From a virus, in the IMG/VR virus record IMGVR_UViG_3300021185_001297, positions 1 to 20,210 of that record: 20,210 bases of DNA. One strand, given 5' to 3'. Shown here one piece after another: positions 1 through 14,894 of the stretch; the stretch's first letter is position 1, and each line of letters opens with the position of its first letter. Position numbers and translations under genes: made by a program. The notes below the pieces were generated by a model. It saw only the letters and a program-made list of their open reading frames with translations, made no database searches and had not been told where the DNA came from.

Positions 1-3000
1 ATGTAGTACTTGTTACATTTGATATTACATATATACTAGTTAAATTGCCTTGATCTGCGCCTACAAAAGACACACTATGCGTATTAGAAATACCTTCTAC
101 ATTACCAGTAACAGTAACAATTCCGGATGCGTCATTTTGCGATACACTTACTGCTCTAGCAGTTTGATATGTTTTGTCGTTTAATGTAACATTAAAATCT
201 GTAATTGCACTAGTAGATTTTGCTTCTATGTTTGCGATTGTTGAGGAGACTGTTCCAACATTTATTTCTGCAGTTGTTACGGTCAAGCCAACAGTATCTG
301 TATATCCAGTACCTTGATTATTGACTGCTATAGAACTAATTAGTCCGTTAGTATTAAGTGTTGCTGTAGCCGTTGCATTTGCGCCGTCACCTGTGATATT
401 AATTACAGGTAATTCGAAATATTTATGATCTGTTTCTAAAACATCTATTCTGTCTATAACTCCTGTTGTATCTTCAGGGAAGGCCAATGTGAATAACTGT
501 GGGTCCTGTACAAAGTCTGATTTAACTAGTGCTAGTTCTACACTCTGATCATTTTCTAAATCACCGAAAGAACCAACTTTAAGAGCCCACTCATCATAGA
601 TGTCCATGTCTCCTTGTATGATAGCACTACTTCTTCCTATTCTACTTAAACTTGTTTTGGTTCCTTTATTCTGTATAAACCCTTTATAGAATTCAAATTG
701 TTGATCATCATCAATCTCTAATTCTGAGAGATATTTTTTCTCTTGGTATCCAAATAAACTTCTAGCAGTTTCGTATACTTGTTTCTCTACAGGTATAAAT
801 CCAAGTTCATGGTATCTTCCCATGCTTTCTGCTAAGTTATCTAGGTTAGGTTTTAAAGAATCTTCTTGTATCAGGAATCCTTCACTTATAAATCTACCGT
901 CCCAATTTGCTGTCCTATTACCTTTTAATCTTATTCTTGATTGTTGCTGATTCAATAAAGGATCAAATAATGTATCAGCAAAATCTGTAACATTATCTAA
1001 TACCATAGCATGTTCTATTTCTCTTACAAATAAACATACGGCATATATTTCTTTTCCTTTTGGGGGTATAATCTCTAGTCTTAAATCCTGTCTATTTATG
1101 GAACATTCTTTTGGATTTATAGACTTTCCGTCTTTATCCATAATGTTAAACATATTATATTCACTACGTTTAATTTTTGCAACAAACCCTTTTGTAGTTT
1201 CAAATGTTATTTTATTAGCCATCGGAGACAACTCTAAAGTATTACCTACTTGCCAGTTATCTTGCAACCAGAATAAGAATTGTTTTGCAGAATAGATCCA
1301 GTCTCTTGTATCGTTTATGTCTATGTCATATTCACCAAACGTATATCCTAAATCCTTTTGATATCTTCCTAAAGAAACTAAGAAGTCAAATACATCTTGT
1401 TCTGATGTATAAACTGTTTCGTAATCTACTTTTTTAATTGTTCCTGTTGTGTCTAAATATACCGCACCTTCTTTGAAATCAATCTGTGGTAACCTATTTA
1501 GTTTTTTATATAATAACCCGCTGAATGTATTTGCACCTGGTACATAATCTTTTGCTTCGTAATATACATCATTATAGTTTACTATAGTACCTTTGTTGTA
1601 GGATGTATTTGCCTGCCAGTCTACATAAGGATGAGGTTCTCCACCTACCTGTAGTTTTTCTGATCTCCCAGTGACGTCACTTTCTAAAATTTTAAAATGA
1701 CCTAAATTTTTATCGTAACCTTTTACTATATATCCTGTAGATGCTTTTTGTATTATTACACCCTGATATACATTTCTAGATTTATACGGAGAGTTATGTA
1801 CGGATAATGTAATATTTTCTTGAGGTATAATTAGATTAGTACTATTTCCTGTTGTACTATATTGATCCATGGACATTGTCATTGTGTCTTTGTCTACATA
1901 ACCTGAGAATCTATAACCTAGTTTTGTATTAAGTGTTCTAACTTTATCTGCAAAGAATGTTTTTATGTCTAAGCCTTGGAATCGTAACCAACTATTAATA
2001 AATTGTGTATAGCCTATATTAGTTACTATATTTCTGTCGTCATCTATATCACCATGTATTTCGAAATCTGTACTGGATGAGAAGTCCCAACTTTTTCTAG
2101 TAAGTTTACTTAAATAATTTCTATTAAATCCGCCTTCATATAGACTGTGTGACAGTTCTAAAACTTTTGTAGGGTCGCTGAATACTGTAGCAAATTGTCC
2201 TGGTTTGTGTAAAAGCAATGCTTCTACTACTGCAAATGGATATTTTTCACTATATTTCCATGCATTTTCTACAGGAGCACCATCTCCTAGTTTCCAAGAA
2301 TTTAGTATTTCCGTAGTATTAGATTGCCTGATATTTGGTGTACTTGTTTGAGCCTTAGTTGCACCGTCGTCTGGAACAACTTGTCCAACACTATTTTGTG
2401 CTATATTGTTAAGTGTAGCCAACGTTTTTCCTACGTATGTGTTCAAAGTCATACTTGACTCAGGTAGTTCTGAAGTTGTGTCTGCAACTCCTCCAATTGC
2501 GTAAGGGAACATTGGTGTTCCTGTATCGTCGATTGTAACAACGTAATATCTTATAGGCGAACTAGGGGAATCAGGAGTGTATCCTACTCTATGATTATAT
2601 TTACTTGCATACCCAAGGGCAGTATCAGTACTGGTATCATATCTGTAATCTTGTACAAATACACCTGTTGGTGCCCCACCTGGGCCATTCGGTCTTATAT
2701 CTGTGCTAAGAACAAATCCACTTTTAATGTTTGTTATAGCACTAGATGAATCCATTGGATCTGTATATCCATATGGTCCGTAAATTGGTAAGCCGTCAAA
2801 TGCCCATCCTACAATACCCGAGTGTGTTGAGCTATCTCCCCAAACACTACTATTTGACATTTCAGAAGTTATAACCGTTGTAGTTGCAACTCCGCTTGTA
2901 TTTGTTATTGCAATGTCACCTGAATTTCTTAATTTACTATCTTCATATTCTTTATTGTAAATCCAACCTGTTGTACTCCAGGTATTACTTGATAAAACAC

Positions 3001-6000
3001 TCATAAGAGGAAGACCGTTTATTAGTATTCCCACTGCACCGTCACTGAAATTATTATCTGTTCCATTGCCTTCTGCAACTGTTGTTAAGTCTATGGTATT
3101 AGATAAACTATATGTTTGCGTTAAGAACTTAATTGGATCAGGCTCTGTGACTAATTGTCTAGAATAGTTTGGCTTAGATATACTTCTAATATAAATTTTA
3201 TTAGCATCGTATGATATGTTTATGCCGTCTTTCTTTAAAAAACTTGTTGTTTTAAATCCTAGCGACGTGTCTAAAATGGTTTCACTGTATCTAATATTTT
3301 TAGTTGTAGACCCAGTATTACCTATGTCGTATGGGGATTTTAAATTTGCATCTGAATCTACAGGAAGTAAATCTAATAATCCTGTTCTTCTTCCTGATAA
3401 TTTTCTTGTATAAATATTGTGGTCACCATGAGAATTACCAATATAATTATCATTTGTAATGTTTTCTCTATTACCCTGCCTGATTATTCCTTTTTCTAAA
3501 TCACTCCACATAGGAGTATTGTTACTGCCATAATCACTATATGCTGTTGTAATATATTGTGAGTCCCACCAAGTTGGTTTTTCTGTGAACCCTAGCATTT
3601 CCCATGGATGTGTATGAGGTCTTACTGTATCGTAATAGTATTCAAACCAGCCTCTCCAGTGCCCTGGCAAGTCAGAGTCGCCTCTGTAATTCCATGTCCA
3701 TGAGTCGTTAGCATCATAGAATTCGTTTACAATAGGATCTACTTTATTTTCAATTACCCAGTTTTCGAAATTTGTTTGTAATAAATCATTAAATTCTGAT
3801 GTTGAAAGTCTATCTAATCTAAAAGCACCTGGTCTAGTTTCTGAAATATTAAGTGCGGGTAAACTGTTTGCTGTCCTAAATTCTGCTTTTGCTGAGTTAT
3901 ATATTCTTTTTTCAAATTCTAGTACTATGTCGTCTCTAAGATCGTTAAATACAGGAAGCCTACTACCGTCATGACCTATAATTACATCTTGTGCTTCTGT
4001 AAAACTCGTATCACTTTCTTTGTAAGGCAAATAAAGTGGATATAAACCCATAGTACTAGGTGTCGGAGGACACTCTACACTATCTCTATCTTTATTGTAA
4101 ATTTTGAATTCTAACTCATCTAATAGTTCTGGAGTGTAATTGTTAAATGTTACGGTTAAAGGACTATATGTTAATGTATAATCATCACCAATAGTCATTA
4201 ATGTTTTTACACCCTTCCTTGTGTAGTATACTAATAAACTATTTTCTATTTTATCTAAATCTGCTGTACTTGTTAATGTGTGAGAACTTAAAGTAATATC
4301 ATCTATTATCTTAGTCTCCTTCGCATAGTTATCACCAAATGGCATAACATAAGTGTCACCGAAAACATTTCTGCCAACACTAAACGATATTAAATTTCTT
4401 AAGACTTTTTCTAAAATTTCCTCATTACTAACTTCTGAGAAGTCAACTATATTAAAGTAGTTTTCTAACTCTTTAAAAAATCTTTTCTTATATTTTCCAT
4501 ATTCGTTTGCATTAAATCTTAGAGCCTCTACCAAATTGTGAGGTTTGTCATCTAATAAAAATGCTCCTAATATTAGATCTTCATTAGTTTGAACAATATC
4601 TGTAGCATAATCTGCCTTCTTTTCCAAGTCACTAAAATTGTTTACATTTAATGAATCCCCAGTAAACCCAATTTGACCTTCCATGTATTTTTTAAAATGT
4701 GACAAATATTCAGGTTCTGATATCTTTGTAATACTTTTATTTAAAGGGTTATTGCTCCATGCTAATGGTAAAGCATGTTTACTTTTGTTGCTTGTAGAAA
4801 TAATTAGTCCTGAGGAACTATATGCACTAACTTCAAATATATCGCCAACAGCAAGATATTTTCTTTCTATCGTAATGCTATTATCTATATAAGAAAAGTT
4901 AGTAAAAGATACACCGTTCTTTTTTACAATTAAATCAAGGCTACCGTCGTTGTCTACTATCGAATTAGACAATAGATCAGGTACACAACCTATATCAAAT
5001 TTTGTTGAGAACTCATCTAATTTTGTTCTTGTAATTTCATGTATTGTTTCTATTCGTTGTTTGCTTTTAGCAGTAACGTCTTTAAATGTATTAAAATACC
5101 TAGGCTTAGTTTTACATAATTTATACTTATAATTTCCGCTTATATCGGTATAATCTGTACCACCTAATGTAATATGCGAGTAAGTAGTAGTATCTATAAA
5201 GTTTATAAAACTTATTTCACTTGCACTTTTAAATGCTCTATATACTAAAGGAATTCCATAAATTGGGTCCTTAGTCCCAGTGCCTACTTCTAAACCAAAT
5301 ATTTTGTTGCCTGTAAATGTACTACTTGGGAATATAAGTTTGTTGCCTAAATATCTATGCATATCATCATATAGATTAAATAAAGGTGCTTGGTTTAATT
5401 TTGATTTAATTTGTGCTTGTACTAACCCGTCATTGTAATAGTACTCTTTTCCAATCTCTTGATTACCCGATGATATAAAAACAGTATTGTTTTCATCAAA
5501 GGTACTATCAACACTTAAACTAATTGCATTTGATAATGATGCATTGGCAACCGTTGCCACATAAATATTTTTGGAAATAGCAGAACTTTCATTAGGAAAA
5601 ATAATCTTTGTTCCTGTTTGCACAGTAACTGAGTCAATCGTTACATTACTTGCATCTAATCCATTTATCTCACTATATAATAATTCTGAACTAACGTCTA
5701 CGTTTCCTTTGCTAGTTATTCCGTGATTATATAATTCTAAATCTTTGTCAAATTCTAAAATAGGCCTGTCTGCTTGGTGTACTTTAGCCGGAATGTCGTC
5801 TCCAGCATCAGTAAAGTTTTCTTTATGATACCAAAAATTTACTCTACTCCAAACATTATTATTTACTGCTCCTCTGCCTAATAAAACATAATCTTTACTT
5901 GTTTGTGGATTGTTGTACCCATTAGAATAATTTTGTATTACTGGTACAAGTACTATTTCTTCGCCTACGCCTTCTACTATATATTCATTACCGCTGTACT

Positions 6001-6838
6001 TAGAATTATCTATAACATAACTTCCTGCGAATGCAATCTTCATGCCGTTTCTAAATGTTGTGCCGCCTAAAGGAGTATATGTAGGTTTACCTACAATGTC
6101 CTTGTCTACGTCTATAGGGTTAGTTGCAGTACCAGATACATTAATTGCTGTAGGTGATTTAATTACATCTGTAATTGTTAATGTAATATCAGCACCACCG
6201 CCACCGCCTAAATTAGCGTCTGTTATAGTTACAGTATCGTTTGTATCAAAATATAGACCTTCTTTATTAAGACTTACAGTTCCGGAACCGTTCGAAGAGA
6301 TTACCACAGAAAATTCTGCATTAAATCCATTGCCGCTTGTAGTATATTCACTAGAATCTATCGTGTAACTTCCTGCTGTTCTGTTACTATCTGCAGAAAT
6401 AGATGCAGTTAAAGTTTTTATGCTACCATGCGGTGTCCAAAAATATTCTTGATAATTTATAAATTTATTATATTCTATGGGAGGAAGAAACGATTGATAA
6501 TGTGTTGAAAATATTTTATTCTCATCCGACATTTCAACATTATAATTTTTTAATGTTGCTACTAATTCATCATAAAACATAAAGTCTTCACTTATGTTTG
6601 TTGTTGCATTTGTAGTGTTTACGGCAGGTGTTAAACTATAAAATTGCTTATTAACATCATCTTCGTATATCCATACGCCATCTACTAGTTTATCTTTAGA
6701 TGTTTTTTTACCTATAAAGCCACTTATTGGTTCTAAGTTTGCTTTACTATAAAGTTGCTCTACAGTACTTTCAAAAAAGTTTTTTACAGTATTTGTTTGT
6801 AGAATACCGGGTAATTTTTTATAAATTTTATTTGCCAT
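1..6838 (-). CDS. 7: Baseplate wedge protein gp7-like, giant form; 3' end beyond the window
   Basis: Likely the gp7 wedge subunit, which with gp6 and gp53 forms the arms of the T4-type baseplate. The ATG at 6838-6836 overlaps the gp6 stop (TAATG), and the frame stays open to the left edge: at least 2,279 residues against 1,032 in T4 gp7, so it is partial here. Seen in translation: an N-terminus beginning MANKIYKKLPGILQTN, NYQEYFW near residue 130, RVNFWYH (W336) then QADRPILEF, IIGHDGS (H956), and HWRGWFEYYYD then PHTHPWEMLGF (W1079). I recognise this W/Y-rich pattern as that of large wedge proteins of marine T4-like phages, and the position after gp25 and gp6 fits gp7. A YHYH-like domain (about 1340-1450), a CBM5/12-like motif (about 1741-1768) and beta-rich G-x-G-Y segments (about 2150-2210) follow. 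No Shine-Dalgarno is visible, so translation is probably coupled to gp6. The gp7 name rests on synteny and pattern and is less sure than the structural role. Confidence 0.8.
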   Translation of the reverse strand, partial: MANKIYKKLPGILQTNTVKNFFESTVEQLYSKANLEPISGFIGKKTSKDKLVDGVWIYEDDVNKQFYSLTPAVNTTNATTNISEDFMFYDELVATLKNYNVEMSDENKIFSTHYQSFLPPIEYNKFINYQEYFWTPHGSIKTLTASISADSNRTAGSYTIDSSEYTTSGNGFNAEFSVVISSNGSGTVSLNKEGLYFDTNDTVTITDANLGGGGGADITLTITDVIKSPTAINVSGTATNPIDVDKDIVGKPTYTPLGGTTFRNGMKIAFAGSYVIDNSKYSGNEYIVEGVGEEIVLVPVIQNYSNGYNNPQTSKDYVLLGRGAVNNNVWSRVNFWYHKENFTDAGDDIPAKVHQADRPILEFDKDLELYNHGITSKGNVDVSSELLYSEINGLDASNVTIDSVTVQTGTKIIFPNESSAISKNIYVATVANASLSNAISLSVDSTFDENNTVFISSGNQEIGKEYYYNDGLVQAQIKSKLNQAPLFNLYDDMHRYLGNKLIFPSSTFTGNKIFGLEVGTGTKDPIYGIPLVYRAFKSASEISFINFIDTTTYSHITLGGTDYTDISGNYKYKLCKTKPRYFNTFKDVTAKSKQRIETIHEITRTKLDEFSTKFDIGCVPDLLSNSIVDNDGSLDLIVKKNGVSFTNFSYIDNSITIERKYLAVGDIFEVSAYSSSGLIISTSNKSKHALPLAWSNNPLNKSITKISEPEYLSHFKKYMEGQIGFTGDSLNVNNFSDLEKKADYATDIVQTNEDLILGAFLLDDKPHNLVEALRFNANEYGKYKKRFFKELENYFNIVDFSEVSNEEILEKVLRNLISFSVGRNVFGDTYVMPFGDNYAKETKIIDDITLSSHTLTSTADLDKIENSLLVYYTRKGVKTLMTIGDDYTLTYSPLTVTFNNYTPELLDELEFKIYNKDRDSVECPPTPSTMGLYPLYLPYKESDTSFTEAQDVIIGHDGSRLPVFNDLRDDIVLEFEKRIYNSAKAEFRTANSLPALNISETRPGAFRLDRLSTSEFNDLLQTNFENWVIENKVDPIVNEFYDANDSWTWNYRGDSDLPGHWRGWFEYYYDTVRPHTHPWEMLGFTEKPTWWDSQYITTAYSDYGSNNTPMWSDLEKGIIRQGNRENITNDNYIGNSHGDHNIYTRKLSGRRTGLLDLLPVDSDANLKSPYDIGNTGSTTKNIRYSETILDTSLGFKTTSFLKKDGINISYDANKIYIRSISKPNYSRQLVTEPDPIKFLTQTYSLSNTIDLTTVAEGNGTDNNFSDGAVGILINGLPLMSVLSSNTWSTTGWIYNKEYEDSKLRNSGDIAITNTSGVATTTVITSEMSNSSVWGDSSTHSGIVGWAFDGLPIYGPYGYTDPMDSSSAITNIKSGFVLSTDIRPNGPGGAPTGVFVQDYRYDTSTDTALGYASKYNHRVGYTPDSPSSPIRYYVVTIDDTGTPMFPYAIGGVADTTSELPESSMTLNTYVGKTLATLNNIAQNSVGQVVPDDGATKAQTSTPNIRQSNTTEILNSWKLGDGAPVENAWKYSEKYPFAVVEALLLHKPGQFATVFSDPTKVLELSHSLYEGGFNRNYLSKLTRKSWDFSSSTDFEIHGDIDDDRNIVTNIGYTQFINSWLRFQGLDIKTFFADKVRTLNTKLGYRFSGYVDKDTMTMSMDQYSTTGNSTNLIIPQENITLSVHNSPYKSRNVYQGVIIQKASTGYIVKGYDKNLGHFKILESDVTGRSEKLQVGGEPHPYVDWQANTSYNKGTIVNYNDVYYEAKDYVPGANTFSGLLYKKLNRLPQIDFKEGAVYLDTTGTIKKVDYETVYTSEQDVFDFLVSLGRYQKDLGYTFGEYDIDINDTRDWIYSAKQFLFWLQDNWQVGNTLELSPMANKITFETTKGFVAKIKRSEYNMFNIMDKDGKSINPKECSINRQDLRLEIIPPKGKEIYAVCLFVREIEHAMVLDNVTDFADTLFDPLLNQQQSRIRLKGNRTANWDGRFISEGFLIQEDSLKPNLDNLAESMGRYHELGFIPVEKQVYETARSLFGYQEKKYLSELEIDDDQQFEFYKGFIQNKGTKTSLSRIGRSSAIIQGDMDIYDEWALKVGSFGDLENDQSVELALVKSDFVQDPQLFTLAFPEDTTGVIDRIDVLETDHKYFELPVINITGDGANATATATLNTNGLISSIAVNNQGTGYTDTVGLTVTTAEINVGTVSSTIANIEAKSTSAITDFNVTLNDKTYQTARAVSVSQNDASGIVTVTGNVEGISNTHSVSFVGADQGNLTSIYVISNVTSTT
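1531..1630 (-). other. CBM5/12-like carbohydrate-binding motif inside the gp7-like protein
   Basis: Residues about 1737-1768 show W1741 followed by YNKGTIVNYNDVYYEA and a later TF. This is the W-x5-Y-x2-G-x2-V-x-Y-x3-Y-x-A spacing of the short chitin-binding-type modules (CBM5/12) that occur in chitinases and phage tail proteins. The motif is seen directly. Sugar binding is inferred, and the segment may be purely structural. Confidence 0.5.
2491..2821 (-). other. YHYH-like domain inside the gp7-like protein
   Basis: Residues about 1340-1450 read GWAFDGLPIYGPYGY (W1345), then a Gly/Pro-rich loop, YNHRVGYT, IRYYVVT and MFPYAIGG (Y1446). The order of a G-x-x-x-DG-x-P-I-Y-G-P-Y-G-Y motif, a Y/H motif and a final P-Y-x-x-G motif is that of the YHYH family, a domain of unclear function found in secreted and virion proteins. 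Its His and Tyr residues suggest metal or ligand binding, which is inference. Confidence 0.65.
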
Positions 6839-9800
6839 TAGTTAGCCAATGTTGTTTTAGTAATTTTATCTATAATTTCTATATCGGAGACTTTTGCTGT
6901 ACTAACAAAAAACTCATTAGACTCTGCTTTAATTTGGAATAAATCTCCAAATGTTCCTGAATTATTTTTAGGTACGATCACAATGCTTCCTATGATTCCA
7001 CTTAATTGTTGATGTACATAACTGCTCAATTCTGTAAAGTAAAAATTCTCTCCAAACTCCCAATTGTCAACATTAAAATATTTATTGAATGCTTGAATAA
7101 CTTTTGTCTTAATTTCATTATCGCTTAGAGATGAACCTGCAAGTTTTACGACTCTAAATTTTGCTCTTGTGCTTTCTTCTGCATCTGCACCAAATAATCT
7201 TTTAAACTTAGCACTTTTGTATACAATAGTATCACTGGCATTTTTAAAGTTTTCTAAATTTATAAATTCATTAGATAATTCGTCACTTGTAGGTGCTAGA
7301 GGATATGCTGTACCTGGTACATTTATATATTTTTGTATAGCATCATAATAGGACAATGTTAGTACTAACATTTCTACGACATTACTAATGCTTGGGTCTA
7401 TTCTTACGTCGTTAGGTGCTCTGTGATCCCATTTTATAACACATGGTCTAACATCGCCTACTCTTGTATCTTGGTCTTTGCCTCGTCCTATTTTAACAAA
7501 GCAATCTGTTGTCTCTACTAGACTAATACTATTTGCATCTGTACTACTTCTTGTCATTACATAGAATTTCTCATTTTCTACAACATATATTTTAATACCA
7601 AAATATTGATTTGCTGTATTCTCAAACTTTTCTGCCATTACTAAAGTATCTAACAATATATAATCAACAGTACTCCATTCTACTGGGTCAGAATAAGTTA
7701 TAGGAGATATTGTAGGAGGTGTAGAACTAGATTTAGTATTATCCCAATCTGTCTCTCCTCTCCAGTCTAAAATAACTCCACTAACAGGTCGGTCATATAC
7801 ATACCCATCGAAGTCACTGTAATTTTCAAATATAATTAAATCTGTACTTGACACAAATTCATTAAATTGAAACGGTTTGTCTGGAACTAAGTCATTATTA
7901 GCATCTATTGGTGCGACTTTAACCTTTCTATTATCAGTATAACCATCTGTATATTTGAACACATCTGTAATTGTATAAACTATGTCTTCTTCTAGTCTAT
8001 CTTTTGCTGTAAGATACTCAACTAAAATCTTATCTCTACTAATAGCACCTGTTGTATCACTAGCAAAAGTGTAGTAATTGTCATCTAAGTTTGTATATGT
8101 TAATACCCCGGTCTCTGTTGCAAGGTCTACTGATGTTAATTCTAATCTTCCTCTGTCGGCGGTACTATTAAATACATTTCCTGTAATACCGTATGATCTG
8201 ACACCTGTTGTTCCAGTAGTAAATACACCACCATGGTAATATTCTGTTAATTGGGTCGTTGCATTGTATTGTTTGTAGGTAACATTTCCAACTGAATCTA
8301 AAATATTATATCCAAAAGTAGTATTTGTAAACGGTATGGTTATAGTGCTTGGTAACTTACTTATACGTCCATCATTATTAGATAATGTTACGTTATTTGT
8401 AGATACATTTCCATCATCAAAATAAGGATTTAAAGCAACATTAGCCGCATTTACGAATCTATTTTCTATTATAATATTTGCTTTAGGAGTACCTAAACCT
8501 TGTAATATTGCGAAGTTACTTTGCCATACTACGTTTACATCAAACCATTTTACATCTCTAGATCTTAATGCAATATTTGTTCTTAAACCATTTGGATCAT
8601 AGTATGCAGAATTATCTAAACTTTGCCATGCGTCTGCAATATTGTCGCTATCAGAATCTGCCCAAACAAAACTTTCAGTAACACCTGGTTTATAATTTAA
8701 GGTATTAAATGTAATTGTATCTTTTACTGCTTTTGTTGTGTTGTCTGTGATCTTAACAGATTTTACATTGTAGAATTTCAAATCGTTAACACTTTGTACA
8801 ACATATGACAGACCACGTATAGTTACATTGTATCTATAACTTGTAGCATCAATTGGGGAGAATTCAAACAACATTAACCAACTATTATCTAAGTTATTTA
8901 ACGTTGTATCTTTAGCATGTTCTATGCCTAATGCTCCTGTTTTCAGTAGATTGCTATTTGTAATTATGTAATATTCTTGAGCTGTAAGATCAAAACCTAA
9001 TCCAAATGTACTCTTATTAGAAATAGCATTCTGTATGGCTACTTTCTCATTTGCTGTAAATGTTTTTCTCAAACTTGAAATAACTTCTTCTGCTCTCCAG
9101 TTTGAGTTAATAGGTTGACTTAAAGTCCACGGTCCTATACTTGTACTTAATCCACTTGATAATGCGCCGTTGCTATCTACTCCGGTAATCCTAACCCATT
9201 TATAATCTGCTATGTTTGTTGGATCTACAAATTTAACAAACGTGTTTTCTTGAAACACCTTTGTGGATTCTGTATTGTTTACCATTACTACAGTATCTTC
9301 ACTACTAAATGTTTCTGTCATATAACCTGTAGTACTTTGTGTAGCAACTGGTAATGGGTTCCATCTAATATTTAATGTATCTGTAATAAATTTAGTTGGT
9401 ATGAAGTCGTTCCATTTTTCTCTTAGAGTATCATAAACTGTATTATTTAATCTTTGCCCTTTTAGGAATGTAACAATAGTGTTATCAATAACTTCTGAAG
9501 GCGTATTGTTATCACTTACAATTAATTGCTTTGTACTCGGATCGTCATCTTTATAAAGATACCCGTCTTCTGCATAAGTCTCAACACTTTGAAATGTTCC
9601 AGTGGGATCACTTATATCAATATATCTGCTATGGCCTGCATGTGTTCTATTTGTTGATTTTAGTTTTAAAATGTTAGATGTTTGACTTAAAGGAAACACA
9701 TTATAGTCTTGTGCTGACACCATTCTATTTTGCGTATAGAATGTTTGCGGTGCTCTTGCTTTAATATTTGCTAAACTTTCTGCAGGCAAACTATTGTTTA

Positions 9801-11013
9801 CAACATTCTCTAACCCGAATGTTACTGTTAATCTATATTGAGAGCCTTCTGCGTTTACATACGGTATAGTTGCTTGTAAATTATTTGCATCATCTGGATG
9901 TATTGAATATCTACTGCCGTCACTTGATCTATGCCATATTCTAAAAATGCCCGATGGCACATTACCAAAATTTCCATCTGGAAACTTAATTCTTATTCCG
10001 TCGTTATTTAAATTTTCTACTGAATATAAATTTCTAGTGTTTAATGCTTGGCTATTATAGTTCAATGTTTGGCCAACTGTATTTGGGATTTTAGTCCATT
10101 GGTTTTCTACAACACCTTGTGTATTTACTTCTTGCACGAAAACATCTGTTTCGTTAATATTTTGTTTTAAAATATCTTCAAATCTACTTGTTAATGGTGT
10201 TTCGTAATTAAAGTCATCAAAAGATAGTGCGCCTTGTTTGAATAGTAAAAAGAAACCTGTATTCTCACTTGCTAGGCCTAATCCGTCGTTTCTATAGTAG
10301 AAGCCAAAATCATTTGTTGGGTTAGGTTGCTTTTCGTAAAAGTATTCATTATCGTAAAAATCACCATTAACAATTTCAAAAGGTCTAGTAACACCATTTA
10401 CATTTATTTCAAATGCATGTGCTATAGGGGAAGTAATAGGTGTACTTATAGTGTATTGATCTGTATTAATTCCTCGTATTTTGCCGGACTTTACAGGCGT
10501 TGAGAATCTATTGCTAGTGCCCATTGCCGCATTTAAAACTGTAATGAATTGTTCGTAACTATCTGAGTTATTAGCATCGTCCCAAAAAATATTTTGATTA
10601 GACAGTTCATTACCCTGGCTGTCAGTTAAAGGTTCATTAGTACTAATGCTTGTAACCTTCATTAATCCACTTGCAGGAATATTTCTTTTAGGATTATATC
10701 CTAACATCCTTGCAAGTTTAAATACTGAGTCTCTTCTTTCAGCAGTTTCTAAAAAGTTTTCTCTTGTATTAACATCCATTCTAAATGCAATACTTGTGCT
10801 TAGGAAAGAAAGCAATTCTATGATTGCGATGAATTCTGAACTTTCTATATAATCATTAAAGTTTTCTGGAAAGTTTGTTCTTATGTATTCTACTAAAGAA
10901 GATCTAATAGTATCAAAATCATATGCTTGAAAGTCTACTTCACTGTATGCCTTATATGCCACTTTCCAATCTTCTGCGGCGAATAGATTATTTTGTCTAT
11001 TTACTATTGACAT
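6838..11013 (-). CDS. 6: Baseplate wedge protein gp6-like (enlarged)
   Basis: Wedge subunit; in T4, gp6 dimers form the inner baseplate ring around the hub. At 1,391 residues it is about twice T4 gp6 (660). The N-terminus carries the family signature: an FDTIRSSLVEYIRTNFPENF stretch, then IAIIELLSFLSTSIAFRMD and RRDSVFKLARMLGYNPKR (residues about 34-108). The C-terminal 200 residues are also gp6-like (LTLSYYDAIQKY..., then FNKYFNVDNWEFGENFYFTE and a hydrophobic GIIGSIVIVP). The middle is an expanded beta-rich region with two D-rich loops at about 786-794 (DSDSDNIAD) and 1037-1045 (DANNDLVPD). The ATG at 11013 overlaps the gp25 stop (TAATG) and has an AGAGGAA ribosome site. It sits between gp25 and gp7, as expected for a wedge operon. 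Confidence 0.92.
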   Translation of the reverse strand: MSIVNRQNNLFAAEDWKVAYKAYSEVDFQAYDFDTIRSSLVEYIRTNFPENFNDYIESSEFIAIIELLSFLSTSIAFRMDVNTRENFLETAERRDSVFKLARMLGYNPKRNIPASGLMKVTSISTNEPLTDSQGNELSNQNIFWDDANNSDSYEQFITVLNAAMGTSNRFSTPVKSGKIRGINTDQYTISTPITSPIAHAFEINVNGVTRPFEIVNGDFYDNEYFYEKQPNPTNDFGFYYRNDGLGLASENTGFFLLFKQGALSFDDFNYETPLTSRFEDILKQNINETDVFVQEVNTQGVVENQWTKIPNTVGQTLNYNSQALNTRNLYSVENLNNDGIRIKFPDGNFGNVPSGIFRIWHRSSDGSRYSIHPDDANNLQATIPYVNAEGSQYRLTVTFGLENVVNNSLPAESLANIKARAPQTFYTQNRMVSAQDYNVFPLSQTSNILKLKSTNRTHAGHSRYIDISDPTGTFQSVETYAEDGYLYKDDDPSTKQLIVSDNNTPSEVIDNTIVTFLKGQRLNNTVYDTLREKWNDFIPTKFITDTLNIRWNPLPVATQSTTGYMTETFSSEDTVVMVNNTESTKVFQENTFVKFVDPTNIADYKWVRITGVDSNGALSSGLSTSIGPWTLSQPINSNWRAEEVISSLRKTFTANEKVAIQNAISNKSTFGLGFDLTAQEYYIITNSNLLKTGALGIEHAKDTTLNNLDNSWLMLFEFSPIDATSYRYNVTIRGLSYVVQSVNDLKFYNVKSVKITDNTTKAVKDTITFNTLNYKPGVTESFVWADSDSDNIADAWQSLDNSAYYDPNGLRTNIALRSRDVKWFDVNVVWQSNFAILQGLGTPKANIIIENRFVNAANVALNPYFDDGNVSTNNVTLSNNDGRISKLPSTITIPFTNTTFGYNILDSVGNVTYKQYNATTQLTEYYHGGVFTTGTTGVRSYGITGNVFNSTADRGRLELTSVDLATETGVLTYTNLDDNYYTFASDTTGAISRDKILVEYLTAKDRLEEDIVYTITDVFKYTDGYTDNRKVKVAPIDANNDLVPDKPFQFNEFVSSTDLIIFENYSDFDGYVYDRPVSGVILDWRGETDWDNTKSSSTPPTISPITYSDPVEWSTVDYILLDTLVMAEKFENTANQYFGIKIYVVENEKFYVMTRSSTDANSISLVETTDCFVKIGRGKDQDTRVGDVRPCVIKWDHRAPNDVRIDPSISNVVEMLVLTLSYYDAIQKYINVPGTAYPLAPTSDELSNEFINLENFKNASDTIVYKSAKFKRLFGADAEESTRAKFRVVKLAGSSLSDNEIKTKVIQAFNKYFNVDNWEFGENFYFTELSSYVHQQLSGIIGSIVIVPKNNSGTFGDLFQIKAESNEFFVSTAKVSDIEIIDKITKTTLAN

Positions 11014-11387
11014 TAAATTTCCTCTGTATTCCTTTTATTAAATTCTATATACAGTACGTCTGCCTGATCTATATTATAATACTTAACTGAAACTTCAGCT
11101 CTTATTGTTTGATCATTTATATATAAAATTGTATTTTCTAATTCTACACGTGGATCTAAATCTACGATTCTTTGAATATCTTCTTTTATTTCTTCTTGTA
11201 ACATAGGACTATCTTGTTCCATTAACATGTCCCAAATTATGCTACCAAAATTAGGTCTCATTACTCGCTCTCCCTTCTTTGTATAGAAGTGATTCAATAA
11301 ATCTCTTTTTATAAGATCAGTATCTGTTAGGGTATAAGGTGCCCTATTTTTGTCTACAGTACTGAAGCCTTTGAATAATGTTGCCAT
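11013..11387 (-). CDS. 25: Baseplate wedge protein gp25 (GPW/gp25 family)
   Basis: Small wedge protein that links the inner baseplate to the sheath; related to TssE of type VI secretion and gpW of phage P2. With the start at the ATG at 11387 it is 124 residues, close to T4 gp25 (132). The family core is plain: LIKRDLLNHFYTKKGERVMR (residues 25-44) then PNFGS, the conserved G-E-R-x-M-x-P-x-F-G segment, with a mixed alpha/beta C-terminal half (ILYINDQTIRAEVSVKYY). The frame could be extended five codons to a TTG at 11402, but those bases are the GATAAATA promoter box, so I prefer the ATG. There is no Shine-Dalgarno, and the predicted transcript start falls on the ATG itself. It overlaps gp6 by one base and is the first gene of this late block. 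Confidence 0.93.
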   Translation of the reverse strand: MATLFKGFSTVDKNRAPYTLTDTDLIKRDLLNHFYTKKGERVMRPNFGSIIWDMLMEQDSPMLQEEIKEDIQRIVDLDPRVELENTILYINDQTIRAEVSVKYYNIDQADVLYIEFNKRNTEEI

Positions 11388-11392
11388 GTAAG

Positions 11393-11400
11393 TATTTATC
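11393..11400 (-). promoter_or_regulatory. T4-type late promoter box (GATAAATA) for gp25-gp6-gp7
   Basis: Read leftwards the bases are GATAAATA, one mismatch from the T4 late consensus TATAAATA, which is recognised by gp55 with host core polymerase. The same 8-mer lies upstream of the other late block (18811-18818). With T4 spacing (box at -13 to -6), transcription would begin at 11387, the first base of gp25. Confidence 0.6.
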
Positions 11401-11430
11401 AAATTAATTAAATATAGTTTTAATTTATGC

Positions 11431-11464: not shown

Positions 11465-12070
11465 ATGAAGAATGTGATTTACTTACACGGTGCCAATGCA
11501 GACCCGGATAACTTTAATTATTTTACGTTAAAGATACCGGAACATCCTTTCTTTGCACCAGCATATGATATGGAACAAGATCCTTACGATTTAGTTGAAT
11601 ACATTAGAATGCAAAAAGAAAGAGAATGGGGCAAAGGCAAAGTTGTACTAGTAGGTCACAGTTTTGGAGGGTTACTAGCAAGTTGGTATGCAAGTGTTTA
11701 CCCTAATAAAGTTGATCACTTAGTTACTATTGCGACACCATGGCAAGGTACGCCAGTGGCTAGGATACTTTCTATGATTTTCAGAAATAGTAAAGTATTT
11801 GAAAATACTAAGCCTGGCGCAGATGTACTAAGACTCCTACAAGAAAAAACTTATACAGGCAAGCACACTAATGTTGTTTGTACCGGTAGTTCTAATCCTT
11901 TAGCAGGGTTAGGCGGCCAAGCAAATGATGGTATGATATTAGTTTCTAGTCAATCCTCCACACCCCCAAAGTTCAAAAATACCGAGAATGTCTATATAGA
12001 AGCAGGACATAGCGGAGTTTTGTTAAATAATGATGTAACAGATTTGTTACAGAAAATAATTGAGAAATGA
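11465..12070 (+). CDS. Alpha/beta hydrolase (lipase/esterase-like)
   Basis: A 201-residue serine hydrolase of the alpha/beta fold. Strand 1 and the oxyanion region read VIYLHGAN (residues 4-11). The nucleophile elbow is G64-H-S66-F-G68-G, followed by a helix and HLVTIATPWQGTP, a segment typical of lipases of the PGAP1/triacylglycerol lipase type. The acid is probably D155 (in ANDGMI) and the base H182 (in EAGHSGVL), giving a complete S66-D155-H182 triad in the usual order. There is no signal peptide or membrane segment, so it should act in the host cytoplasm unless packaged. The substrate cannot be read from the sequence; a lipid, ester or thioester is possible. It opens a two-gene plus-strand cassette between two minus-strand baseplate blocks, with its own sigma70-like promoter, suggesting host modification or lysis-related roles rather than structure. 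Confidence 0.85.
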   Translation: MKNVIYLHGANADPDNFNYFTLKIPEHPFFAPAYDMEQDPYDLVEYIRMQKEREWGKGKVVLVGHSFGGLLASWYASVYPNKVDHLVTIATPWQGTPVARILSMIFRNSKVFENTKPGADVLRLLQEKTYTGKHTNVVCTGSSNPLAGLGGQANDGMILVSSQSSTPPKFKNTENVYIEAGHSGVLLNNDVTDLLQKIIEK

Positions 12071-12071
12071 T

Positions 12072-12269
12072 ATGTCAGAAGTAAAACCCTTGAACGATAC
12101 TTTAGAAGAACAACTAAGACGTATGCTTGTTGATAAGAACAATGAATGTGCTAATTTAAGAGCTAAAATCAAACTGCTTGAAGAAAATATTGCAATCGAG
12201 CAAGAACAAAAATACAGAGCGTTAGTTGAAGTTGCTGATCTTAAAAAATCTAATAGACAGATAGCCTAA
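12072..12269 (+). CDS. Small coiled-coil protein, function unknown
   Basis: A 65-residue protein starting at the ATG at 12072, two bases after the hydrolase stop, so probably co-translated. A TTG at 12060 in the same frame would add four residues and overlap the hydrolase. It is highly charged, almost wholly predicted helix, with leucines and isoleucines in heptad-like spacing (LEEQLRRML, then LRAKIKLLEENIAIE, then LVEVADLKK), indicating a coiled coil from about residue 10 to 60. I do not recognise a family. It has no signal peptide, membrane segment or cysteine pair. Its 3' end overlaps the convergent lysozyme-like gene by four bases. Partnership with the hydrolase is only suggested by position. 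Confidence 0.6.
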   Translation: MSEVKPLNDTLEEQLRRMLVDKNNECANLRAKIKLLEENIAIEQEQKYRALVEVADLKKSNRQIA

Positions 12270-12850
12270 AAGAATATACCTAGTTTGTTAAATGCTCGTT
12301 TTTTAGCGAATATCAATATTGCTCTCATTTCATTAAAGTTTATATTCTTTTGATCTGGAAACAATGTGTTCTGTGAACCTTCTGCTTCTACTTGCCATTT
12401 CAAGTGACCCGGAGTAGAAAATAATTCTGCTTCATACCTTCTCCTAGCAACATAATCTGCTCTTACAGTAGGTCTAGAAAACTTTCCTATCTTACCCACT
12501 CTAAATCTTTGCATAAGTTTAGGTACTGCTTTATAATTTCCCTTATTAAGTTGAACTAAGAGTTCGCTTCTTGCAAAGTTATCTATACCTATATGTGCAA
12601 TAAGACTTGCTAATGCGCCAAGTTGATTTTTATTTAGTGGCACAGTTACAATATCCTTAGCCTGAGATAAGGCATTTTTTAGTTCAGATTCTAGAGCAAG
12701 TCTATCAGCCGCAGGGCCTATGCCATTTATAAATTCTACTAATTTGACCCCTGTTTTTTTATGAATATAAATTATACTAGGACCGTCTAAATACACTTCT
12801 ATTCCTTTATCAGATAGTCGTTCTACTACTTTATCAAATACATCAGCCAC
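12266..12850 (-). CDS. Lysozyme-fold (GH24-like) baseplate-associated protein, apparently lacking catalytic residues
   Basis: A 194-residue protein. Residues about 72-144 resemble the C-terminal lobe of phage lysozymes (GH24): LNKNQLGALASLIAHIG, then FARSELLVQLNKGNY, then RRRYEAELF, matching the family pattern Q-x-A-L-x-S-x-x-x-N-x-G, S-x-L-L-x-x-L-N-x-G-x-Y and R-R-x-x-E-x-x-L-F. The N-terminal 70 residues show no E-x-x-x-L-x-x-Y-x-D nor T-I-G-x-G motif, so the T4-type Glu/Asp/Thr set is not visible. A structural or binding role is as likely as peptidoglycan cleavage. The start is GTG at 12850 with AGGAG at 12861-12857; it overlaps the gp5 stop by eight bases. In T4 the lysozyme lies inside gp5; here this protein follows a gp5 without one. 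Confidence 0.6.
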   Translation of the reverse strand: MADVFDKVVERLSDKGIEVYLDGPSIIYIHKKTGVKLVEFINGIGPAADRLALESELKNALSQAKDIVTVPLNKNQLGALASLIAHIGIDNFARSELLVQLNKGNYKAVPKLMQRFRVGKIGKFSRPTVRADYVARRRYEAELFSTPGHLKWQVEAEGSQNTLFPDQKNINFNEMRAILIFAKKRAFNKLGIFF

Positions 12851-14894
12851 CTGTGTCTCCTAATATTTTTTTAGTTTTGTCGTCTGCGGCCGATTTGAAA
12901 TCTTCTACGTTACCGCCTGTAACCTCATTAACTATATTACTAATATCGTCTTTCATTCCTGCTACTACACTATCTTTTAAATCTAAAGGTAACCCAAATT
13001 CATCTAAAGAAAATTGGTTGTACTGTGCCTCTAAGTCTTTAAGTATTTTAGATTGCCCAATAATTTTTTGTGATAATGCATTTGTTGTAGGTATTCTGAA
13101 GGGAGGTATAGCAATGTTAAGCATATCTGCCATTTGCATGATTCCATCTAGATTACTCAAATTTAAATTTTTAATAGCATTAAAGTCACTTAATGCACTA
13201 TTATAATCTTCATACACACTTTTTACGCCGTCTTTTGCTTCTTGGAATGCTTTACCTACATTTGTTCCTTCCGGAGTATCTGCATCTGCAGGCGTATCAT
13301 CTGTAGGGTCTATTTGGTTTTCTAATGTTTCACCATCTACAGATTTATCTTCTTCGATACTGCTGGGGTCTTCAGTACTAGGATCAAACTGCCCATGGCC
13401 ATTAAATGGCTCTGCGGTAATTAATTTTCCTACTATAGTATTAATAAGAGGTCCCTTTTCAGGCCTTTGCCCGCCATTTAATATAGGGTTAGCCTCTTCT
13501 CGATCGTATTCAGGTGATGCAGAAGACTGGTCAGGTTTCTCTACTCCGCCTAGTTGTTGAGCTGGTATTGCCGGGATAAGATCTGGAGAAGGAGGTGTAC
13601 CTGGATTATTTAATCCTATGGTTGATCCAAATAAATTTGTAGTCCCTCCTGCTGAAAGAGTTGCGGCACCTCCGGCTAATACGTCTACCTTTAAATCAGC
13701 CTGTACAGTCATATATCCTTTTGATTGCAATGCTGTACCTAACGTACTAGTCATAGTCATTCTGCCTGCGGCACTCAGTTGCATTTCACCGGAATTCGCT
13801 GTTGCAAGGAAATTAGAATTAGCATGAATATTTGTATCTTCTGCAGAATGTAAATTTACTTTGCCGCCCACTCCTAAAGGGGGCAGACCCAAGGCACCAA
13901 CTGCTGATGCTACGCCTTTATAACCTGATCTGTCGTTATCGCCGACTGCTTTTATATTTACGTCATTACCTGCTTCTATATTAACATTCTTATCAGCTCG
14001 TAAATTAAAATCACCTTTACTTCTAATGCTCATAGAGCCCTCGCCGAAAAAGTTTATATTACCGTCTTTATCTAATTCAAACCATGCTTTACCGTTTTTA
14101 GTAATCACATATATAGAACCGGTCGTATCGTCCATTAATATTTGTGTTCCGCCACCTGTTCTTAATCTTATATTAGAATTGTTTTGTGCATCATCCATTA
14201 TAAATTGATGCCCCGGACCTATAGAATCTCCCTTATCGTTTCTAGGTCCTTTAGTAAGTATACCTAATACTTCACTAGGTGATTCTCTTCTAGAACTACT
14301 TGATGTTGCCCCTCTTAAAGGATCATTTATAAGACCCTGTTTAGTAATTGCTTCTGCAAAATCATGGTATATAGGCCTTAACTTTCCATTGTGAATGGGA
14401 TCAGGGTCATATTGATTCTTTTCTGTTGTAGGTGTATTAAACGGACCACCTTGAAAACTAGGACCTCCTGCAATACCAGGTACCATTTGATTAAATGGCA
14501 TGCCGTTAGTTGTTTGACTGATTATATAAGGTTTAGAAAGTAGCCCATCTCCAAATACTATTAATACTATACTGCCTACGTCAGGCGGTGGCGTCCAAAA
14601 TCCATAGGACTTAACTGCATTATCGTCTAATGTTATATCGTCACTTTTTACATTTCCATATGGTGACGTTCCGAAAAACTGAGATGTATAAACAGCATCA
14701 AACAATACCTGTTCACAAGGATCATCATTTAATGCAGAAATATAAACTGCAACTGTACCTGTTTTTTCTGTATTTACATTTTCATCTACGACACCGGTAT
14801 ATACACCAAAGTATCGTTTTGTACTATCACGCTCTTTTGTAGGATCACTATGTGAGACCTTGTTAGATTTTGATGTGTAATAATGTTTAGCCAC
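12843..14894 (-). CDS. 5: Baseplate central spike protein gp5-like, without lysozyme domain
   Basis: Membrane-puncturing spike under the hub. The 683 residues read as an N-terminal OB-fold (about 28-130: YFGVYTGVV..., FWTPPPDVGSIVLIVFGDG at about 99-117, then MVPGIAGG), a linker of about 100 residues, and a VgrG/gp5-like beta-prism (about 228-425). In the prism, QFIMDD, IRLRTGGGTQILMDD and WFELDKDGNI lead into eight-residue repeats (GDFNLRAD, KNVNIEAG, NDVNIKAV). T4 gp5 (575 residues) carries a lysozyme between OB-fold and prism; nothing like it fits here. The last 250 residues are an acidic linker and helical tail with no T4 counterpart that I recognise. The GTG start at 14894 overlaps the upstream stop by eight bases and has GGAAGG upstream; no ATG lies near. 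Confidence 0.85.
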   Translation of the reverse strand: MAKHYYTSKSNKVSHSDPTKERDSTKRYFGVYTGVVDENVNTEKTGTVAVYISALNDDPCEQVLFDAVYTSQFFGTSPYGNVKSDDITLDDNAVKSYGFWTPPPDVGSIVLIVFGDGLLSKPYIISQTTNGMPFNQMVPGIAGGPSFQGGPFNTPTTEKNQYDPDPIHNGKLRPIYHDFAEAITKQGLINDPLRGATSSSSRRESPSEVLGILTKGPRNDKGDSIGPGHQFIMDDAQNNSNIRLRTGGGTQILMDDTTGSIYVITKNGKAWFELDKDGNINFFGEGSMSIRSKGDFNLRADKNVNIEAGNDVNIKAVGDNDRSGYKGVASAVGALGLPPLGVGGKVNLHSAEDTNIHANSNFLATANSGEMQLSAAGRMTMTSTLGTALQSKGYMTVQADLKVDVLAGGAATLSAGGTTNLFGSTIGLNNPGTPPSPDLIPAIPAQQLGGVEKPDQSSASPEYDREEANPILNGGQRPEKGPLINTIVGKLITAEPFNGHGQFDPSTEDPSSIEEDKSVDGETLENQIDPTDDTPADADTPEGTNVGKAFQEAKDGVKSVYEDYNSALSDFNAIKNLNLSNLDGIMQMADMLNIAIPPFRIPTTNALSQKIIGQSKILKDLEAQYNQFSLDEFGLPLDLKDSVVAGMKDDISNIVNEVTGGNVEDFKSAADDKTKKILGDTGG

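Follow-up and report, generated by a model that had tools for sequence, protein, structure and literature searches.

The central spike protein gp5 of phage T4 carries its lysozyme, with the catalytic residues Glu184 and Asp193, between the OB fold and the prism (PMC7677548). Another position of the enzyme has already been described for the RaK2-like jumbo phages (RaK2, PMC3622015; CBB, PMC5259590), in which gp5 (RaK2 gp078, CBB_240 and 121Q gp587) comprises an OB fold, spike repeats and a C-terminal lysozyme that follows the prism, and separate lysozyme genes are also found in the baseplate cluster. In 121Q, RaK2 and Vibrio phage 2.275.O the C-terminal lysozyme of gp5 is of the T4 type, with the E..D..T motif intact. 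The baseplate hub can likewise bear wall-degrading domains; several are present in gp15 of A-1(L) and were reported to be active, in a paper that does not describe a pseudo-lysozyme (PMC10966104). A study of SAR11 myophages recorded a marked divergence of gp5 and speculated that it reflects adaptation to the wall of the host (PMC7029224).

The DNA analysed here, referred to as the window, is an IMG/VR fragment of 20,210 bases that represents the baseplate region of a T4-like myovirus. The order of genes on the minus strand begins with a 310-aa virion protein, a gp53-like wedge protein, the gp27-like hub and gp5, and continues with a gene for a 194-aa protein (hereafter the pseudo-lysozyme), gp25, a protein named gp6-like by its position and homology, and a large protein. 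On the plus strand lie the gene of a late sigma factor resembling gp55 and the beginning of a further gene. As in T4, a gp5 with an OB fold and a prism spike is thus located beside hub and wedge genes, and the two open reading frames on which the original prediction was based were confirmed on the minus strand (Table 1). A close relative of the window was not found in a DNA-level search of the annotated phage collection.

Two further genes are located inside the baseplate operon on the opposite strand, between the pseudo-lysozyme and gp25, namely a 201-aa alpha/beta hydrolase (11465-12070, plus strand; GHSFGG; Abhydrolase_1, E 7e-12) and a coiled-coil-like ORF of 69 aa (12060-12269, plus strand). 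This pair is equally placed in the nearest relatives and in several others, not in all.

Table 1. Features of the spike locus and its flanking genes, with positions in the window.
Feature	Position	Strand	Remarks
gp27-like hub protein, 889 aa	14887..17556	-	no wall-degrading domain found in profile searches
gp5-like central spike protein, 683 aa	12843..14894	-	GTG start; without lysozyme
gp5, OB-fold domain, residues ~28-130	14505..14813	-	AF2 strands 31-128
gp5, linker, residues ~129-209	14268..14510	-	pLDDT <50, no predicted fold; conserved motifs
gp5, beta-prism/spike repeats, residues ~210-440	13575..14267	-	AF2 repeated strands 209-284, weaker beyond
gp5, C-terminal extension, residues ~496-683	12846..13409	-	disordered linker and conserved helices 606-677
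AGGAGA, Shine-Dalgarno-like	12856..12861	-	within the end of gp5, 5 nt before the pseudo-lysozyme GTG
Pseudo-lysozyme gene, 194 aa	12266..12850	-	GTG start; 8-nt overlap with gp5
Pseudo-lysozyme, remodelled N-lobe, residues 1-45	12716..12850	-	GH24 topology, catalytic motif replaced by another signature
Pseudo-lysozyme, GH24 C-lobe, residues 46-146	12413..12715	-	
Pseudo-lysozyme, C-terminal extension, residues 147-194	12269..12412	-	low-confidence 158-168, then helix 172-189 (AF2)
gp25-like baseplate wedge protein (context)	11013..11402	-	PF04965, E 3.6e-10

Both features typical of T4 gp5, the OB fold and the spike prism, are present in the gp5 of the window. The protein matches phrog_13211 (baseplate hub/tail lysozyme; E 6e-27), with the best stretch falling in the prism, for which a match to DUF2345 was also obtained (E 1.7e-4, below the Pfam cut-off), and the OB fold of its relatives matches PF04717. 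The AF2 model of gp5, computed from an alignment without two rows from annotated records, has a mean pLDDT of only 57.8 and is therefore used at the level of domains only; a Foldseek search with it matched contractile injection system spikes, VgrG, R2 pyocin and T4 gp5. The linker contains invariant columns, e.g. E158, Q186 G187 L188, D191 and R194 G195. Neither the profile libraries nor AF2 revealed a lysozyme between the OB fold and the prism, in agreement with the predicted succession of OB fold, linker and prism without the enzyme. A recognisable lysozyme domain was looked for at residues 130-228 in particular, and a hidden one was rejected for want of both a profile match and a predicted fold. 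The equivalent of the C-terminal helices 606-677 runs into the pseudo-lysozyme in relatives in which the two are fused.

The 194-aa protein had been described as similar to the C-terminal lobe of GH24 lysozymes over residues 72-144, with an N-terminus lacking the catalytic motif. The similarity is real, and its range is about residues 39-146. The profile PF00959 (Phage_lysozyme) was matched with 45.6 bits at a cut-off of 22.3 bits, residues 50-119 corresponding to profile positions 41-110 of 125, and the better sequence matches in the PDB were all GH24 lysozymes, including the SpmX muramidase domain. Profile-profile comparison with intact GH24 gave a probability of 99.5% over residues 39-146; with the N-lobe on its own, no match to GH24 was obtained. 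These results show that the likeness of the C-lobe, in which most GH24-conserved positions are retained, is far beyond chance and that the motif of the N-lobe is truly missing.

The structure prediction proposed together with the profile search also returned a lysozyme (GH24) fold. The AF2 model of the 194-aa protein, built on an alignment of 35 relatives, is of moderate confidence (pLDDT 80.7, pTM 0.67), with an uncertain residue-to-residue register in the N-lobe, and comprises helix 2-14, strands 17-22, 25-30 and 36-39, and then the helices of the C-lobe. Since this helix-strand-strand-strand topology is that of GH24, the N-lobe is predicted to be remodelled rather than absent, and its complete replacement was rejected although the profile comparison of the N-lobe finds nothing. 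The best structural matches of the model, with Z of 12-13 and a maximum of 13.4, are AbLys1, PHAb10/11, a prophage muramidase and the muramidase-like domain of SpmX from Caulobacterales (6h9d, Z 12.4). The SpmX domain arose by co-option of a phage lysozyme. This GH24-like domain functions in binding and oligomerisation and has no detectable activity (PMC5347347). However, it has kept the catalytic Glu (E19) and belongs to a bacterial polarity complex, whereas the 194-aa protein has lost the Glu and is associated with a phage spike.

In a search of unaligned sequences, the GH24 motif E..D..T[IV]GxG was found in 27 of the 34 reference GH24s and in none of the 65 family members, so that a catalytic Glu masked by misalignment can be rejected. 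Column counts revealed that E13, T28 and the IGxG block are near-invariant in the 34 references, while the family has other conserved residues. The signature common to the 65 members consists of L12, G16-I17, D22-G23, I27, G34, D/E39, N42-G43 and G45-P46; D22 is present in 63 members, as is an acid at position 39. The dN/dS values among the members of the split clade, 0.08-0.23, are close to those of gp5. The replacement of the motif by a shared signature, together with these values, makes decay or sequencing error very unlikely. Judged from the sequences, the pseudo-lysozyme is a maintained, conserved family; the initial description of the gene as degenerate does not hold in the sense of decay, given the conserved signature and purifying selection.

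The best matches of the 194-aa protein in both sequence and structure are the endolysins AbLys1, PHAb10/11, P22 and R21, which have the GH24 N-lobe motif and are not parts of a spike. The 194-aa gene itself does not look like that of a phage endolysin: the motif is absent, the context is a baseplate operon, and in relatives it is fused to gp5. In hhalign comparisons the family matched endolysin-type GH24 with 99.5% and T4-type GH24 with 20%; in the control, the endolysin-type and T4-type profiles found each other over the full motif with 98.7%. The profiles thus place the domain in the endolysin (P22/R21-like) branch of GH24 and not in that of T4, and an origin from a T4-type lysozyme is rejected on these values. 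T4 gp5, the presumed starting point of the split, is consequently the wrong model, the domain being of the endolysin type and C-terminal.

A search with gp5 yielded 80 related contigs, which are fragments. In 37 of them the domain is fused to gp5 as its C-terminus, in a single chain of about 840-950 aa, and in 33 it has its own ORF, which immediately follows a gp5 of 671-731 aa, with overlapping or abutting stop and start codons, often TAATG, after a purine-rich stretch. Because the fused relatives carry the domain C-terminally, it belongs to the end of gp5 and not to the middle as in T4. The placement known from RaK2, C-terminal to the prism, is thus found in the fused relatives and corresponds to the next gene in the window; unlike in the RaK2-like phages, the domain is of the endolysin type, has lost its motif and, in the window, has a gene of its own. 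Of the options considered originally, detachment of the domain and its conversion to a structural part has the best support, except that the domain was not cut from the middle of a T4-like gp5.

In a tree built on the OB-plus-prism part of gp5, all gp5s associated with a pseudo-lysozyme form one group (100/99), and the window falls inside a nine-member split clade (100/100). The fused or split state changes two to three times on this tree, suggesting that the split occurred more than once or was reversed. In some contigs gp5 is cut at other places, into 583 and 383 aa in L071 and L072 and into 476 and 464 aa in L078, which indicates repeated cutting of gp5 in this phage group. Contig L155 encodes a T4-type lysozyme (1588-2028), a gp5 OB-fold ORF (2025-2489) and an ORF comprising the prism and the pseudo-lysozyme (2477-4531). 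No isolate with a pseudo-lysozyme was found in the phage collection, where the tblastn matches in phages were endolysins; Roseobacter phages CRP-3 and CRP-235 scored well as candidate carriers but have endolysins with the intact motif. A scan of prokaryote genomes with one family member found none.

In relatives with the pseudo-lysozyme the C-terminus of the hub is often a wall-degrading module, as in gp15 of A-1(L). It is an M23 peptidase in L058, L071 and L072 (E 2e-30), an SLT-like module in L059, L060 and L174 and a SleB-like module in L038, L039, L040, L046, L048, L170 and L172, the latter two kinds scoring below the Pfam cut-offs. An M15-like metal motif is present in L049, L057, L162, L165, L166, L168 and L169, this label being given by the pattern HxxGxAxD...HxxHLH alone, with no recognition by Pfam or PHROGs. 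In L152 and L155 a T4-type lysozyme gene is located directly upstream of gp5, with the motif intact in L155. These figures are counts of contigs rather than independent events, since several contigs are from the same or nearly the same phage.

The hubs of the window and its clade contain no recognisable wall-degrading module. Searches of the window and 13 related records at E 0.01 found no SLT, M15_4, M15_3, Amidase_2, NLPC_P60, Amidase_3 or Hydrolase_2 domain, and an M23 match was obtained in the record of L071 only; the SleB- and SLT-like hub domains occur only in contigs outside these 14 records. The GH19 search was uninformative, as its controls were silent. It had been suggested that, if neither spike protein cuts peptidoglycan, entry must rely on another enzyme or on force alone. 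The adjoining wall-degrading modules of many relatives provide a partial answer; for the clade of the window none was found, in records that are fragments and thus do not establish the absence of a wall enzyme.

Taken together, we estimate at about two in three the probability that the 194-aa protein is a GH24 domain of the spike without catalytic activity, formerly the C-terminus of gp5, that binds rather than cuts. In an ancestor of this T4-like group, gp5 would have ended, beyond its prism, in a GH24 domain of the endolysin type. The N-lobe would then have been remodelled, with the loss of the catalytic residues and fixation of the new conserved signature, and the gene would have been cut in two by a stop/start overlap, probably more than once, so that gp5 and the domain would be made as separate, translationally coupled subunits. 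The domain most likely binds partners in gp5 or the hub, the cell wall, or both. Peptidoglycan would be cut by other modules; in many relatives these may be the C-terminal domain of the hub, which resembles a peptidase, a transglycosylase or a cell-wall hydrolase, or the product of a separate lysozyme gene. A binding part is the simplest account because the domain accompanies the spike, has no cutting residues and is conserved as a whole. It most likely serves the spike without catalysis, as a structural element or by binding to the wall; we infer that it is present in the virion and lacks activity, and that the enzyme of the window's phage is located elsewhere.

A more specific role, in which the C-lobe and the cleft anchor the spike to peptidoglycan or another glycan while another enzyme cuts, can be proposed only tentatively. 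The C-lobe keeps most GH24-conserved positions, and the wall enzymes of the neighbouring hubs differ in chemistry and would benefit from one common targeting domain; however, a purely structural domain would show the same conservation, and half of the substrate cleft, the N-lobe, has been remodelled. A broader scenario appears rather doubtful, in which an entire aquatic T4-like lineage has exchanged its tail lysozyme for a pseudo-lysozyme that anchors or orients the spike on the wall, with cutting outsourced to exchangeable hub modules, and in which the marine clade of the window has lost the outsourced enzyme too and crosses the wall without a dedicated virion hydrolase. It is unlikely that the protein has remained an enzyme by means of a non-canonical active site, formed for example by D22 and D/E39: these acids are kept in all but two members each and lie in the remodelled sheet, but no member retains the E, T and IGxG that are near-invariant in GH24, and a distinct, recognisable wall enzyme is present within the hub or next to it in many relatives. 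The gene could also be an independent late gene, such as an endolysin relative or a lysozyme regulator, whose product is not part of the virion and which lies beside gp5 by chance. Its separate ORF in the window and the endolysins as its closest named families fit this origin, which is nevertheless very improbable, as the domain is in frame with gp5 in 37 contigs and directly follows it where separate, and a holin-like context was not seen. The missing catalytic residues and split ORF might finally point to a decaying lysozyme leftover or a sequencing or assembly artefact, but the clean stop/start junctions of 33 split contigs, dN/dS values well away from the value near 1 of neutral sequences and a new signature common to 65 homologues leave this a negligible chance.

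The C-terminal position of the domain was known before; the kind of domain, the loss of its catalytic residues and the split set the present case apart, and no account of a catalytically dead lysozyme on a phage spike was found in the papers searched. The spike described here, which preferably is read as carrying a binding domain, supplies a case from phages in which a lysozyme has become a conserved protein that apparently is no enzyme, on a device where phage lysozymes are usually assumed to cut. Annotations as 'tail lysozyme' made from PF00959 or from gp5 homology can therefore name proteins without catalytic residues. Wall-degrading modules shift among the spike, the hub and free genes in related phages, which raises the testable question of the tail domains required for crossing the wall. 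The present comparison may also provide one concrete form of gp5 divergence of the kind seen in SAR11 myophages.

Relatives of gp5 in PA5oct, SCTP-2, Atu_ph07 and Phosso showed no lysozyme, that of Phosso being viewed without a profile search. The gp5 relative of Agrobacterium phage Atu_ph07 (L087, 4908-7505) has a C-terminal trypsin-like peptidase (Trypsin_2, E 6e-17). In Xanthomonas phage XaC1 (L090) the C-terminal T4-type lysozyme of gp5 (4938-7580) looks degenerate, with SVGFGH in place of TIGYGH, and the next gene (7593-8081) encodes an intact lysozyme copy; from its sequence, XaC1 may be another instance of this development.
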